Assembly: GCA_015057085.1 (NCBI GenBank)
Contig: SVFB01000036.1
Span: 62,001-126,000, forward strand
Source: Lachnospiraceae bacterium
Lineage (GTDB): Bacteria > Bacillota > Clostridia > Lachnospirales > Lachnospiraceae
Length of the DNA stretch: 64,000 bases
Direction: 5' to 3'
The notes beneath the pieces were generated by a model. The model worked only from the letters and a program-made list of their open reading frames with translations, was not told the DNA's origin and searched no databases. Below are positions 5,980 through 14,226 of this stretch, in pieces (position 1 is the first letter of the stretch; each line of letters starts with the position of its first letter). The translations under genes and the position numbers were made by a program.

Positions 5980-6546
5980 ATGAGGAAAACGATTCTAAGG
6001 ATAGGGCTAATCGCTGTTTTGCTATTATCCAGTGTGGTGATAGTGAAAGAAGTGACATTGGCTGATACAACAGACAAGGAAACAGTAACCGATACTGAAA
6101 TAACTGTGGGAGATGCAGAAGCTTCAGCAGTGCAGGATACGGTTACAATTGCGGATGAAGAGACCCCAAAGAGTCGCTGGGATGGGAAATGGGCTGTCGC
6201 AAATCTGGTTTTAATGCTGATTACAGCTGCAGAAAGCTGTATGATGACATTTGCCTATTTTATGGATCGACCGGATTATGATGCTGAAACTTTTATCAAT
6301 CATATGGATGAGGACGTGGAAGATGAGTTTCATGAGAATGAGCTCACAAAAAGAAAAGAAATTCTTCGCACCTTAAGCATTCCGGTTACGACAGTGGCGA
6401 TTATAGAATTTATTTTGACGGAAGATATGTCATTTCCAATGGTGGCCGTGGACAAATATACATTTATTATGGCAGTGTTTGCAGTCATCAATTCTGCGTT
6501 TCTAGTGTTTAGCTCAAAACGCATTCTTAACAAACAAATCGAATAG
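5980..6546 (+). CDS. Hypothetical membrane protein with signal/TM segments
   Basis: N-terminal hydrophobic segment and three later hydrophobic segments. Confidence 0.7.
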   Translation: MRKTILRIGLIAVLLLSSVVIVKEVTLADTTDKETVTDTEITVGDAEASAVQDTVTIADEETPKSRWDGKWAVANLVLMLITAAESCMMTFAYFMDRPDYDAETFINHMDEDVEDEFHENELTKRKEILRTLSIPVTTVAIIEFILTEDMSFPMVAVDKYTFIMAVFAVINSAFLVFSSKRILNKQIE

Positions 6547-6566: not shown

Positions 6567-6600
6567 GGGAGCAAGTTGAGTTTGACTTGCTCTCTTTTTT
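6567..6600 (+). terminator. Rho-independent terminator
   Basis: GAGCAAGT-loop-ACTTGCTC followed by TCTTTTTTT. Confidence 0.8.
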
Positions 6601-6790
6601 TATGTTCTGAAAAACTAGTTATACATGTCCTGTGCCAGGTGATAACTTGCAATAAATTATTGTTATCATAGACAAAACCGATAACCAATGATAAAGAGCC
6701 AGTATTATACAATTTATCTACTAACCGATATAATCACATTTATTAAAGTCTCGCTCGCGAGACAATAAAACGGTAGTAGGAGGAAGGGAA

Positions 6791-8281
6791 ATGTCTGTAA
6801 TTAACATTGAAGAACCTAATGTGGTAATCAGAGAAAAAAGACTAGGAACCATTAATGCATTTACAGGTACTGCTTCGGAGATTGTGCAGAAATCTGAAGC
6901 CGGATCCTTAAAAGATGCAAAAAGAAAGTTTTCACAGTGTCTTGGCTGTAATGCACAGCAGGCGTTCTGCCAGTTATCAATGATTAAGGATGTGGCAGTA
7001 ATCAATCATGCCCCTATAGGATGCGCTGGAGAATTTTCGGATTTTAACTTTACTTTTAGAGTAGAGCAGGAGAAAAGAAATCTGCCGGAAGATATTGGCA
7101 GATATTTTTCCACCAACATTCAAGAAAAAGATACTGTATTTGGAGCTACAAAAAAGCTAGAAGAAACAATACATGTTGCATATGAGAGGGTGAAACCCAG
7201 AGCAATCTTTGTGACAACATCATGTGCCTCCGGAATTATTGGAGAAGATATTGAATCAGTTGTGGAGAAGGCTTCAAAAGAATTGGGGATTCCTGTTGTG
7301 ACATGTTCATGTGAGGGATTCAGATCAAAAGTTTGGACGACTGGATTCGATGCGGCTTATCACACAGTACTTAGAGGAATTGTAAAACCTCCTACAAAGA
7401 AGACAAATAAGATTAATGTAGTGAACTTCTGGGGAAGTCATGTGTTCGATGAGATTTTTGAAAGATTTGGATATGAAGCGCAATACATTATGCCTTTTGC
7501 TTCGATTGAGGAATTGGAGCATTGCAGCGAGGCAGCGGCTACGATTCATATTTGTCCATCGCTTTCTACCTATATGGGAGCCGGCTTAAGCCAGTTATAT
7601 GATGTTCCGGAAATCACCGCGCCTCCGGCATATGGAATTGATGGAACAGATGGATGGCTGCGTGCGCTCGGAAAAGTACTTGGAAAAGAAGATGTGGCTG
7701 AGGAATTGATTAGAGAAGGACACGAAAAATATGTTCCGGAAATCAACAAGCTAAAGGAACGTTTCAAGGGTAAGAGAGCCTATGTTACTGCGGGAGCAGC
7801 ACATGGTCAGGCGCTCATACATCTCCTTAGAGAATTAGGATTTGAAGTAGTGGGAGCAAGCGTTTTCCATCATGATCCTATTTATGATAGTGGCGATAGA
7901 AACATGGATGTACTTGCCCATGCGGTATCCACATATGGGGATGTAAAGGATTACAGAGTCTGCAACAAACAAAGTTGTGAACTTGTAAATGCTTTGATTC
8001 GTAGTAAACCGGATTTTATCATGGCAAGACATGGTGGAATGACACTTTGGGGTGCAAAGCTTGGTATCCCGACACTTCTGATCGGAGACGAGCAATTTGG
8101 TATCGGATACAAAGGTGCACTTAACTATGCAAGGCGAATCGATGAAACCCTTGATTCTATCGAATTTATTAAGAATTTTTCAAAACATGCATCCAACCCT
8201 TATACCGAGTGGTGGTTAACACAAGAGCCGGGATATTTCCAGAATGGTGGCAGCGGTTGCGGTTGCAGACAAGGAGCATAA
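6791..8281 (+). CDS. Nitrogenase component 1-like protein, NifD-like (alpha) subunit
   Basis: Nitrogenase/oxidoreductase component 1 fold motifs: CLGCNAQQAFCQL, HAPIGCAG, TTSCASGIIGEDIE, CEGFR, HICPSLSTYMGAGLSQLYDVPEI. Followed by K-like, NifH and NifB genes. Confidence 0.88.
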   Translation: MSVINIEEPNVVIREKRLGTINAFTGTASEIVQKSEAGSLKDAKRKFSQCLGCNAQQAFCQLSMIKDVAVINHAPIGCAGEFSDFNFTFRVEQEKRNLPEDIGRYFSTNIQEKDTVFGATKKLEETIHVAYERVKPRAIFVTTSCASGIIGEDIESVVEKASKELGIPVVTCSCEGFRSKVWTTGFDAAYHTVLRGIVKPPTKKTNKINVVNFWGSHVFDEIFERFGYEAQYIMPFASIEELEHCSEAAATIHICPSLSTYMGAGLSQLYDVPEITAPPAYGIDGTDGWLRALGKVLGKEDVAEELIREGHEKYVPEINKLKERFKGKRAYVTAGAAHGQALIHLLRELGFEVVGASVFHHDPIYDSGDRNMDVLAHAVSTYGDVKDYRVCNKQSCELVNALIRSKPDFIMARHGGMTLWGAKLGIPTLLIGDEQFGIGYKGALNYARRIDETLDSIEFIKNFSKHASNPYTEWWLTQEPGYFQNGGSGCGCRQGA

Positions 8282-8282
8282 A

Positions 8283-10474
<2,192 letters not shown>

Positions 10475-10488
10475 GGTTGGTGATAGGA

Positions 10489-11748
10489 ATGATAATCAGG
10501 GTAGCATTTGCCACCAGTGACGGAAAGAGTGTCGACAGACATTTTGGAGCTGCAGAGCGATTTGATATATATGAAATAAACACGGAAAAACAGGAGTATG
10601 AAAGAGTTGAGATAAGATCTGTGGAAAAAGCCTGTCTCAATCATAAACATCATGCAGAAAGAATGGATGCTGTGGCAGGTGCCATCGAGGACTGTCATGC
10701 AGTATTCGCCGAGCTAAGCGGGGCGGGTGCCAGAACGGTTCTTGAAAGTAAGAATATTCAGGCGATTGATATTGATAGGCCAATCTCACAGGTGATTGAA
10801 AATCTTCTATATGGGAAAATAAAGCTCATCGATAAAAGATATACAGAATTGCCTAAGAAAAGGCAGTCTCCAAATTTTAAAAAGCTACAGAAGAAGCATC
10901 CATGTATGAGCGGAGGCGCAAATGTGACTGCAGGAAGAATACACCTTCCTGTGAGTCCAACCTGCAATATTCAATGTAAATTTTGTACAAGAAGATTTGA
11001 TAAATCACTGATCAGACCGGGCGTGAGTTCGTTGGTTCTGAAACCGGAAGAGGCTGTAGAAACGATAGAGCGTGCAAAGGAACTTTGTCCGGAATTAACT
11101 GTTGTGGGCATTGCGGGACCGGGGGATACCTTGGCAACAAATGCTGCGCTTAAGACGTTTGCTTTAGTAAAGGAGAAATATCCTGAGTTAATTAATTGTC
11201 TTTCTACAAATGGTTTTTGCCTTCCTTCTAAAGTAGAAGAAATTGCGAAGATTGGAATAGAGACGATTACGGTTACAGTCAACGCAGTAGATCCGGAGAT
11301 TGAGGCTAAGATCAACGAGTTTGTAATTGATGAGAATGGTGTAAAGCATGAAGGAGTGGAGGGCGCAAAGCTCCTCATTGAAAATCAGCTCAAGGGTATA
11401 AAGAAAGCAGCAGAGCTTGGTATTGTGGTGAAAATCAACAGTGTTCTTTGCCCCGGAATTAATGATGAACATATTGAGGAGGTGGCAAAAGTTACTTCGA
11501 AGCTCGGCGCTTCCATTTTGAATATTATTCCCCTAATTCCTCAAAATGGGATGGCAGATGTGCCGGCTCCCGACTGCAAACTTTTAGACGAAGTAAGACT
11601 TAAGGCAGGCAAATACATTGAAGTTTTTAGACATTGTCAACACTGTAGAGCCGATGCTTTGGGAATTCCCGGAAAAGGGAAGGATTTACACTCCGAACTT
11701 TATAAAGATAGAAAGGAGGAGGTGGCTGAAACCTTCAGTCACGGCTAG
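10489..11748 (+). CDS. NifX-like domain fused N-terminal to a NifB-type radical SAM protein
   Basis: N-terminal IRVAFATSDGKSVDRHFGAAERFDIYEI (NifX/NafY family). C-terminal HPCMSGGA...CNIQCKFCTRRFD (CxxxCxxC) and FRHCQHCRADA, typical of NifB. Start uncertain (TTG 10477, GTG 10480 or ATG 10489). Confidence 0.9.
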   Translation: MIIRVAFATSDGKSVDRHFGAAERFDIYEINTEKQEYERVEIRSVEKACLNHKHHAERMDAVAGAIEDCHAVFAELSGAGARTVLESKNIQAIDIDRPISQVIENLLYGKIKLIDKRYTELPKKRQSPNFKKLQKKHPCMSGGANVTAGRIHLPVSPTCNIQCKFCTRRFDKSLIRPGVSSLVLKPEEAVETIERAKELCPELTVVGIAGPGDTLATNAALKTFALVKEKYPELINCLSTNGFCLPSKVEEIAKIGIETITVTVNAVDPEIEAKINEFVIDENGVKHEGVEGAKLLIENQLKGIKKAAELGIVVKINSVLCPGINDEHIEEVAKVTSKLGASILNIIPLIPQNGMADVPAPDCKLLDEVRLKAGKYIEVFRHCQHCRADALGIPGKGKDLHSELYKDRKEEVAETFSHG

Positions 11749-11750
11749 AA

Positions 11751-12533
11751 GTGAGTTACTTGGAAATCAAAAACCTTCAGAAAAAATTTATTGTGCATGG
11801 CGAACCGCTTGAGGTTCTTAAGGGAATAGATCTTGATGTGAATCAAGGAGAAATCTATGGAATCATTGGATTTAGTGGGGCAGGTAAATCTACACTTGCC
11901 AGGTGTATCAACCGACTGGAAAGCGCTGATGCCGGATCTATTATGGTTGGAGGAGTAGATATTCTATCACTGGACAAGAAAGCTCTTTTACGAGAGCGTA
12001 GAAAAATTGGAATGGTTTTTCAGAATTTTAATCTGTTTGATTCAAGAACCGTTTACAGAAATATTGCATATCCATTGGAAATCAGTGATTTTCCGAAGGA
12101 ACAAATCAAGGAAAGGGTTTTGGAAACAGCAAAACTTGTAGGACTGTCAGATAAATTGGACGCTTATCCGGGTGGATTGTCAGGTGGCCAGAAACAAAGA
12201 GTTGGAATTGCCAGAGCGCTTGTGAACAAGCCCAAACTATTGATTTCGGATGAAGCAACCTCAGCGCTTGATCCTCAAACTACAATACAGATTTTAGATC
12301 TCCTAAAAGAGATTAACAAAAATTCCGGTATCACCATACTGATGATAACGCATGAATTGGATGCCATAAGATACAGTTGTGACAGAATGGCTGTTTTAGA
12401 AGAAGGTACCATCATAGAAAAAGGTTCGGTCGCAGGTATTTTTAATAATCCAAAGAGTCGAACGGGAGCATTATTTGCGAAGGTTTTTGCAGAGTTCCAG
12501 AATATATCATTGACGGAAGGAGCAGGAATATGA
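11751..12533 (+). CDS. MetN-type methionine ABC transporter ATP-binding protein (no C-terminal NIL domain)
   Basis: GTG start 3 nt after the nifB-like stop; FSGAGKST, LSGGQKQRVGIARAL, LLISDEATSALDP; ends about 260 aa. Confidence 0.88.
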   Translation: MSYLEIKNLQKKFIVHGEPLEVLKGIDLDVNQGEIYGIIGFSGAGKSTLARCINRLESADAGSIMVGGVDILSLDKKALLRERRKIGMVFQNFNLFDSRTVYRNIAYPLEISDFPKEQIKERVLETAKLVGLSDKLDAYPGGLSGGQKQRVGIARALVNKPKLLISDEATSALDPQTTIQILDLLKEINKNSGITILMITHELDAIRYSCDRMAVLEEGTIIEKGSVAGIFNNPKSRTGALFAKVFAEFQNISLTEGAGI

Positions 12534-13240
12534 GTTTACTTGATTCATCTGTTTGGGAAGTGATTAAAGCATCCTTTAGCCCGGAAATATGGAAAGATTT
12601 GGTGGCTCCGGTTGGAGAGACATTATATATGACGGTCATTTCTTCAATTATCGTTTTGATATTTGGAATTATACTTGGAATTTTCCTTACGCTGACTTGT
12701 CCGGATGGTTTACTTCCGCTGAAAGCACCTTATTTAACCGCAGGCTGGTTAATCAATGTTTTAAGATCCCTTCCTCAAATGGTAATGATTATCCTTATGA
12801 TTCCCGTGGCGAGGCTGATATTCGGCAAATCCTATGGGACAAATGCTTGTATCATTGCCATAGCAGCCAGCTGTATTCCAATGTATGCCAGAATTGTGGA
12901 AAGCTCGCTTTTGGAAATCGGGAAAGGCAAGATTGAGGCGGCTAAGTCCATTGGAAGCACTAATTTTCAGATTATAACCAAGGTGATTTTACCTGAAACG
13001 TTGCCGGGTCTTATAAGAGGATTCACAGTTGCAGTGATAACAGTCATTTCCATGACTGCTTTGGCCGGAATGTTTGGCGCAGGAGGCATAGGAGATATTG
13101 CTGTTCGATTTGGATATCAAAGATTTCAGCATGACAGACTTTTTGCCTGTGTTTACATTTTGGTTATACTTGTTCAGATTACGCAGGGAATCGGCAATTT
13201 GATTTCAAACAAAATCCTGAGAACCAGGAATTTAGTATAA
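12530..13240 (+). CDS. MetI-type ABC transporter permease
   Basis: 4-bp overlap with the ATPase; GWLINVLRSLPQMVMIILMIP and EAAKSIGSTNFQIITKVILPETLPGLIRG. Confidence 0.9.
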   Translation: MSLLDSSVWEVIKASFSPEIWKDLVAPVGETLYMTVISSIIVLIFGIILGIFLTLTCPDGLLPLKAPYLTAGWLINVLRSLPQMVMIILMIPVARLIFGKSYGTNACIIAIAASCIPMYARIVESSLLEIGKGKIEAAKSIGSTNFQIITKVILPETLPGLIRGFTVAVITVISMTALAGMFGAGGIGDIAVRFGYQRFQHDRLFACVYILVILVQITQGIGNLISNKILRTRNLV

Positions 13241-13261
13241 GAAAGAAAAGAGGTAGAAATT

Positions 13262-14119
13262 ATGAAGAAAAAAGTATTAGCTGTTTTATTAACCACTGCA
13301 ACAATTATCGCATCATTTACAGCCTGCGGCGGCAAAAATGATGCTAAAACATCTGAAACAGAAGGGGGAGCAACCGCTGCATCTTCTGAGGACGGGGAAA
13401 CAATTGTGCTGAAAGGAATTGCAGACCTTGTTCCTCATTCAGAGATTATTGAATATATTAAGCCAAAGCTTGCTGAACAGGGAATTGAAATTGAACTTGT
13501 ATCAACTGCAGCAGATTCTACAACAAATGAGAAACTTAATGCAGGAGAAATTGATTTCAACTATTTCCAGCATGAGCCATATCTTTTATCTGAAGTTGAA
13601 GCAAATGGTTATGACCTTGTAAGTGTAGGAGGTATCCACGTTGAACCAATTACAGCATACTCTGATAAGTATGAGTCTGTAGATGAGCTTCCGGAGAATG
13701 CTGTAGTAGCAATTCCAAATGATGGTACAAATGAGTATCGTGCACTCAGAATTCTTGAATTAAACGGATTTATTACATTAGATGAGGCTGCAAAGGATTC
13801 CTTAAGTGCTTCTGTACAGGATATTACAGAGTATAAGATTCCGATTGAGATTGTGGAACTTGATTCTGCTCAGATTATTCCGACAAAGGATGATTATGAC
13901 TTTTTCATTACCAACACGAATAAGGCACTTGAAGCAAAGATTACATCAACCAGACTTTTCTCGGAAGGTGCTGACAGCCCATATGCAAATATCATTGCTG
14001 TAAGAAGCGAGGACAAGGATAATCCTGCAATTCAGGCCCTTGTAGAGGCTTTACTTGATGAAGATACACAAGCTTTTATTGAGGAAAAATATGATGGAGC
14101 TGTTATCCCAGTTAAATAA
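13262..14119 (+). CDS. MetQ/NlpA-type substrate-binding lipoprotein
   Basis: Lipoprotein-like signal MKKKVLAVLLTTATIIASFTACGG; NlpA family features (FNYFQHEPYLLSE, NDGTNEYRALRILELNGFI). Confidence 0.9.
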   Translation: MKKKVLAVLLTTATIIASFTACGGKNDAKTSETEGGATAASSEDGETIVLKGIADLVPHSEIIEYIKPKLAEQGIEIELVSTAADSTTNEKLNAGEIDFNYFQHEPYLLSEVEANGYDLVSVGGIHVEPITAYSDKYESVDELPENAVVAIPNDGTNEYRALRILELNGFITLDEAAKDSLSASVQDITEYKIPIEIVELDSAQIIPTKDDYDFFITNTNKALEAKITSTRLFSEGADSPYANIIAVRSEDKDNPAIQALVEALLDEDTQAFIEEKYDGAVIPVK

Positions 14120-14145: not shown

Positions 14146-14175
14146 TGTTTAAACGCAGGGCCGAACGTTTTCGGC
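14146..14175 (+). terminator. Terminator after metQ-like gene
   Basis: GGGCCGAA-CGTT-TTCGGCCC followed by TTTTT. Confidence 0.85.
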
Positions 14176-14226
14176 CCTTTTTGTATGCCCAAATTCCCCG
14201 CGCTGGCAAACCCTTTTTGCCTATTT

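Follow-up and report, generated by a model that had tools for sequence, protein, structure and literature searches.

In an operon of a Lachnospiraceae bacterium, one gene encodes a 419-residue protein in which a NifX-like domain stands ahead of a NifB-type radical SAM domain, and this fused protein probably builds and carries an iron-sulfur-carbide cluster for a relative of a C-S-bond-breaking enzyme. The operon (gene order D-K-H-XB-metNIQ, Table 1) lies in the window, by which we mean the whole stretch of 64,000 nucleotides that was analysed. The bacterium, of gut/rumen type, is a relative of Agathobacter ruminis, and its genome assembly is 96.7% complete. The parts of this system are known, while their arrangement and setting are new. 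Three NifB architectures have been published, based on 289 curated NifB proteins, and none places NifX first (PMC5715403); the same architectures are repeated in a 2022 review (PMC9692996). A search of the open literature, most subscription papers lying outside it, turned up no previous account of a NifB with NifX in first place, and the mentions of 'NifX-NifB' encountered there refer to other things. The motif filter of PMC5715403 would have excluded the fused protein because the protein has no ExRP motif.

Table 1. Features of the operon and of the fused protein, in window coordinates
Feature	Position	Strand	Basis and remarks
Terminator-like hairpin closing the preceding gene, upstream operon limit	6567..6594	+	12 pairs and a T-run
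Sigma-70-like promoter candidate, TATACA-17-TATAAT	6706..6734	+	Consensus match only; promoter-like sites are no more frequent than by chance
Catalytic subunit of MarD type (nitrogenase component 1 family), 496 aa	6791..8281	+	PF00148, E 1e-83; MarD 9fmg, E 8e-124
MarK-like subunit	8283..9614	+	PF00148; MarK 9d9u_C, E 7e-117, matching the longer ORF from its residue 14 on; start set at the internal ATG 8283 right after the D stop (listed ORF begins at 8244)
NifH/MarH-like reductase, 280 aa	9632..10474	+	PF00142, E 7e-128; TIGR01287, 453 bits (cut-off 394)
Fused NifX-NifB (MarB-type) protein, 419 aa	10489..11748	+	Pfam, NCBIfam, solved-structure search, AlphaFold2 model
N-terminal NifX-like domain, residues 1-108, His at residue 18	10489..10812	+	PF02579, 9ian_E alignment, fold match to 9ian_F and 1p90
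Flexible linker, about residues 109-130	10813..10878	+	pLDDT <50 at 115-123; length and sequence differ among relatives
NifB-type radical SAM domain, about residues 131-419	10879..11748	+	PF04055, partial TIGR01290, 7bi7 structure match, residue survey
C139 (HPC), H152 (GRIH), C159/C163/C166 (CxxxCxxC), C237 (before STNG), C383/C386 (CxxC)	radical SAM domain
MetN-like ABC ATPase	11751..12533	+	PF00005; TIGR02314, 303 bits (below cut-off 500)
MetI-like ABC permease	12530..13240	+	PF00528; NF008049, 155 bits (below cut-off 212)
MetQ/NlpA-like substrate-binding lipoprotein	13262..14119	+	PF03180, E 2e-68
Terminator-like hairpin, downstream operon limit	14157..14178	+	9 pairs (6 GC) and a T-run

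Domains and ligands of the fused protein

The frame opens with an ATG and begins 14 bp after the stop of the nifH-like gene. An earlier note, made from the letters alone, had read it as a NifX-like domain followed by a radical SAM domain, in an order swapped relative to the usual NifB, and this is borne out. Pfam places Nitro_FeMo-Co (PF02579) at residues 11-106 (E 2e-16, 60 bits against a cut-off of 26.3) and Radical_SAM (PF04055) at residues 154-334 (E 7e-21, well over the cut-off), and NCBIfam places nifX at 3-105 and nifB (TIGR01290) at 131-401. In sequence searches of solved structures, the N-terminal part comes closest to Azotobacter vinelandii NifX (9ian, E 1e-7) and the C-terminal part to an archaeal NifB (7jmb, E 3e-86). 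The AlphaFold2 model (pLDDT 84.9) superposes on NifB 7bi7 with a TM-score of 0.92 by target, on NifX 9ian with 0.68 (rmsd 1.7 A) and on the NafY core 1p90 with 0.75; its pTM of 0.69 leaves the relative orientation of the two domains loose, and it is weak at linker residues 115-123 and in the loop at 169-175. Since the Pfam, NCBIfam and solved-structure matches agree with the superpositions, we regard the order NifX then radical SAM, instead of the usual radical SAM then NifX, as established. The NifX-like domain ends near residue 108 and is followed by the disordered linker and the radical SAM domain, so that the C-terminal docking helix for NifE, of the A. vinelandii NifX type, is absent. As the TIGR01290 score of the fused protein (318 bits, over model positions 6-283 of 441 only) falls below the equivalog cut-off of 343.65, we name it a putative NifB-type (MarB-type) maturase and not a canonical nitrogenase NifB.

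We surveyed the residues of the protein against the NifB ligand list of PMC9692996. None of the published K-cluster ligands or radical SAM cysteines is lost in the 13 fused rows or in any unfused relative aligned, and the HPC, CxxxCxxC, AGPG, TxTxN and CxxCRxDAxG motifs of the published set (PMC5715403) are all present. In the N-terminal domain, the alignment to 9ian_E puts His18 opposite H35 of A. vinelandii NifX, the residue that holds NifB-co in the NifEN-NifX structure (PMC13128457), and this histidine is invariant among the fused rows (13/13) and the separate NifX rows (25/25).

It had also been pointed out that the EAHH stretch usual after HPC is replaced by GGAN. As text this is true, the protein reading MSGGAN at that point (HPCMSGGANVTAGRIH), but no known ligand is touched: the stretch differs across the family (Clostridium sister sequences read GGEAH) and houses no published cluster ligand, and the K1 histidine is that of GR(I)H, which is kept. 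The replacement has no known functional meaning; the changes that matter are the loss of the gating-loop cysteine, throughout the clade, and of the ExRP glutamate, in most of the fused clade. The loop cysteine, C62 of MtNifB, is present in canonical rows and is missing in the window protein and the whole non-canonical clade. The ExRP glutamate is L174 in the window protein (LIRP); among the 13 aligned fused rows the position is leucine in the window and nine more, valine in one and glutamate in two, and 31 of 33 separate NifB rows keep the glutamate. ExRP belongs to the published NifB motif set (PMC5715403), and its glutamate ligates the K1 cluster; in MtNifB, C62 caps the radical SAM cluster, and both residues are thought to restrain SAM cleavage until two clusters are loaded (PMC9692996). 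Without the ExRP glutamate, the control of SAM cleavage would have to differ or be lost. The altered gating loop is relevant to the question of how NifB keeps SAM from being cleaved to no purpose. A strict link between fusion and glutamate loss was rejected, as the glutamate is still there in clade B and in two of the aligned fused rows, and two unfused sister rows have lost it.

The enzyme and its genomic setting

The earlier note had assumed a nitrogenase setting; the D and K matches and the active-site residues place the operon with methylthio-alkane reductase (MAR), a C-S-bond-cleaving enzyme, instead. After MarD, the next family matched by the window D protein among solved structures is NifD (E 3e-35), and for K the next match after MarK reaches 3e-17. 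Taking the MAR active-site residues from PMC12552129, window D keeps, in MarD numbering, W195, F199, H375 and Cys73/Gln74, as well as C270 and the Arg428-His429 hallmark on the MarD-specific loop I, and has valine at H194. The P-cluster motif cysteines are kept in both D and K (alignments judged by eye).

Among the known systems closest to this one is MarBHDK of Rhodospirillum rubrum (PMC12552129), a gene cluster that likewise combines D, K and H with a maturase of NifB type and has no NifEN to itself, whose D and K are the closest to those of the window, and whose [Fe8S9C] cluster, held without homocitrate, has its ligands conserved here. Unlike MarBHDK, the window has the order D-K-H-B with a MetNIQ-like importer, and its D is about 41% identical to R. 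rubrum MarD. The window maturase carries an N-terminal NifX domain; the domain make-up of R. rubrum MarB itself lay outside this comparison.

A reading that we hold to be a serious contender, if somewhat short of even, is that the reductase is a sister enzyme of MAR acting on another imported compound, for example a sulfur amino acid or metabolite entering through the MetNIQ-like importer, with the maturase working as in our main proposal. In the D-protein tree, window D falls in a 31-row clade that is sister to the MarD clade and outside it. A MetNIQ-like importer lies nearby in 19 of the 31 loci of this clade vs 2 of 18 in the MarD clade, counts that are lower bounds on both sides, given contig ends (the window, which has the importer, was scored 'no' by the script), and that weigh correspondingly less for this reading. 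The position of His194, near the MarD substrate site, is valine or isoleucine in most of the window D clade, whereas the remaining active-site residues are all MarD-type. R. rubrum has a methylthioadenosine-derived route to 2-methylthioethanol, with MtnA. No MtnA-family protein (TIGR00524) was found in the source genome, so this route looks absent here, which favours a different substrate; against this stand two MetY-type sulfhydrylases that score above the cut-off and could use methanethiol. Because of the sister-clade placement and the importer association, we call the window reductase MAR-like and not MAR proper, and its substrate may differ. The MetNIQ-associated MAR-like D/K clade includes the window (6791-14119) and loci L016-L024, L027, L028, L031, L033, L035, L045, L049, L053 and L055.

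The absence of NifEN, which the earlier note had supposed, holds for the whole genome. A PF00148 search of this 96.7% complete assembly returned two proteins, the operon's D and K, and hence no NifEN, and the only PF02579 domain is the one in the fused protein; a NifEN or a second NifX hidden elsewhere in the genome is thereby ruled out. An Rfam search of the window gave no riboswitch match (SAM riboswitch, T-box and others). The gene immediately before the operon (5980-6546) encodes a small surface protein carrying the FILTED domain NF052597 and has a terminator-like hairpin at its end.

Distribution and origin of the fusion

Relatives were gathered from a GTDB genome scan (80 loci) and from further family, class and phylum samples, chosen by likeness to the window protein, so that the following counts describe its family and not NifB at large. 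Among 146 NifB-type ORFs (some genes were fetched twice), 20 carry an N-terminal NifX domain; a separate nifX lies downstream in 57 and upstream in 34, no nifX lies close by in 23, and NifN-NifB fusions, C-terminal fusions and mixed cases make up the remainder. This survey and the NifB tree reject the N-terminal position as the common order of the family. The window fusion recurs in 13 further loci, from isolates and rumen MAGs of Lachnospiraceae and relatives; the isolates are Agathobacter ruminis JK623, Lachnospiraceae G11 and two Butyrivibrio. As these genomes were assembled independently, an assembly artefact or chance frame was rejected.

The proteins with the window fusion group in a single clade of Lachnospiraceae and relatives, mostly from the rumen, supported by an SH-aLRT of 99 in the large tree (12 rows) and of 100 in the smaller one, and the whole clade retains the fusion even where identity falls to about 65%. 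The sister group is a Clostridium clade whose members, one excepted, have a separate nifX gene right before nifB, the gap to the nifB frame being a few to about 140 bp. The closest unfused relatives are clostridial nifX-nifB pairs in Nfl/MAR-type clusters (for example in Clostridium neonatale, L028, and C. puniceum, L029), which have nifX directly upstream of nifB and MAR-type D and K, and which make two proteins where the window makes one. A second N-terminal NifX-NifB fusion occurs elsewhere in the tree, in other Clostridia (L115, L141, L143; also L165/L193), and a single origin for all N-terminal fusions is rejected by the AU test (p=0.001, with groups named after the first tree was seen). 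The fusion thus looks like a nifX gene and a nifB gene joined independently, at least twice. The idea that the swap is a reshuffled canonical NifB was rejected in favour of such joining, on the NifB tree, the sister gene pairs and the AU test. The NifX tree (117 columns) places the fused domain apart and points to no particular donor, whether the sister clade's upstream NifX or another. In a plasmid search, the best rows held only conventional nifB and separate nifX/nifB pairs.

Fused maturases accompany two kinds of D protein, that of the window and that of loci L025 and L037; therefore the fusion is not bound to one catalytic subfamily. These two loci also hold a distant, separate NifX-like ORF lacking the cofactor histidine (L025:2437-2850, with NFG at that place, and L037:2355). 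In the second fusion set (locus pairs L141/L153, L143/L154, L115/L155 and L165/L193), the loci that are long enough have the order H, XB, K-like, D-like. The ABC transporter of these clusters is a different one, and in L153 and L154 the D-like protein is without the Arg-His hallmark.

The fusion could nevertheless be functionally neutral, the chance loss of a stop and start having joined nifX to nifB, with a domain that acts as any separate NifX would or is dispensable; we consider this possible and on the doubtful side. In favour of neutrality, the sister Clostridium clade has its separate nifX only a short gap ahead of nifB, most relatives manage unfused, and Klebsiella oxytoca can do without the C-terminal NifX-like domain of its canonical NifB (PMC5715403). 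Neutrality fits poorly, however, with the retention of the fusion across its clade and in several isolates, with its second, independent origin, with the invariant carrier histidine, and with a genome that offers no second NifX domain as a substitute.

Cofactor maturation and related systems

Based on these results, we think it likely that the fused protein is the cofactor maturase of a MAR-like operon, making the L-cluster and carrying it to DK without a NifEN stage. In this proposal, the radical SAM domain would fuse two [4Fe-4S] units and insert a SAM-derived carbide, giving the [Fe8S9C] L-cluster; the NifX-like domain would receive the finished cluster in cis through His18 and, by way of the flexible linker, ferry it to empty DK, where the equivalents of MarD Cys270 and His429 would bind it and reduction of a C-S bond would be the final reaction. 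One fused protein would then be the entire late maturation apparatus. Against this proposal count the TIGR01290 score below its cut-off, the leucine in place of the ExRP glutamate, the dispensable K. oxytoca domain, the distance of window D from MarD and the loose domain orientation in the model. MAR uses the L-cluster as it is, without Mo or homocitrate (PMC12552129), and for an enzyme of this class the NifEN stage would thus not be needed; given such direct use, a maker and a carrier in one chain would be a sensible minimal maturase. The earlier suggestion that the fusion may tether cofactor synthesis to a carrier is plausible. By analogy with the domain that K. oxytoca can spare, a carrier may not be needed here either, and the tether may be a matter of efficiency. 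More tentatively, we propose the whole as a fourth NifB architecture, NifX-radical SAM, in which the L-cluster is made and delivered in cis to a sister family of MAR with a MetNIQ-imported substrate, the SAM-gating loop is altered (no loop Cys, no ExRP Glu) and the fusion evolved twice; taken together, these elements fall a little below an even chance.

The fused protein shares both domain families, the K-cluster ligands and the radical SAM cysteines with canonical NifB that has a C-terminal NifX-like domain (A. vinelandii and K. oxytoca type). It differs from it in the opposite order, in the loss of the gating-loop cysteine and the ExRP glutamate, in a radical SAM domain that is roughly 40-48% identical, and in serving no Mo-nitrogenase. 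Maturation modules are also fused in Firmicutes in the three-domain NifN-NifB-NifX protein of Clostridium, but there NifN is N-terminal and NifX C-terminal, and the protein is a member of the canonical clade. With the stand-alone carriers NifX, VnfX and NafY, the window domain has in common the fold and the cofactor-binding histidine (H35 of NifX), while it is covalently attached to the cluster maker and has no NifEN docking partner.

That the operon instead encodes a group IV nitrogenase or another system reducing N2, with the fused protein as its ordinary NifB, is very improbable. In its favour, a nitrogenase-family member is present for each of D, K, H and B, NifEN-free nitrogenases are known from Roseiflexus (PMC11573651), and N2 reduction by L-cluster proteins is possible in vitro (PMC13245594). 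Against it, the N2-essential NifD residues V70, Q191 and H195 give way in window D to C/Q, W and F as in MarD, the NifEN scaffold of Mo-nitrogenase (Nif) is missing, window D has the Arg-His pair that is the hallmark of MAR, its NifD matches trail its MarD matches by about 90 orders of magnitude in E-value, and the operon neighbour is a methionine-type importer. NifD controls from other Clostridia have the nitrogenase residues V/Q/H at these MAR active-site positions. Nitrogen fixation by the nitrogenase-like enzyme is unlikely.

The MAR and NifB literature cited here does not describe how the L-cluster passes from NifB to a MAR that has no NifEN to itself. With maker and carrier in one chain beside the client enzyme, and no other NifX or NifEN, the window system makes this transfer directly testable with four or five genes, and the fused protein is a candidate for engineering as a compact maturase for L-cluster enzymes. 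Our findings also point to a widespread nitrogenase-like enzyme family in gut and rumen Clostridia that is tied to the import of sulfur compounds.

In L040, L042, L047, L048, L066, L075 and L083, two or three different nitrogenase-like D/K pairs surround one nifB, and some of the D subfamilies in these multi-pair clostridial loci have, in place of the terminal Arg-His, either HH or a T with a gap at that position. Methanoperedens archaea (L084, L086 and L091) have a NifB of the non-canonical clade, and in L086 and L091 nitrogenase-like D/K proteins on long branches.
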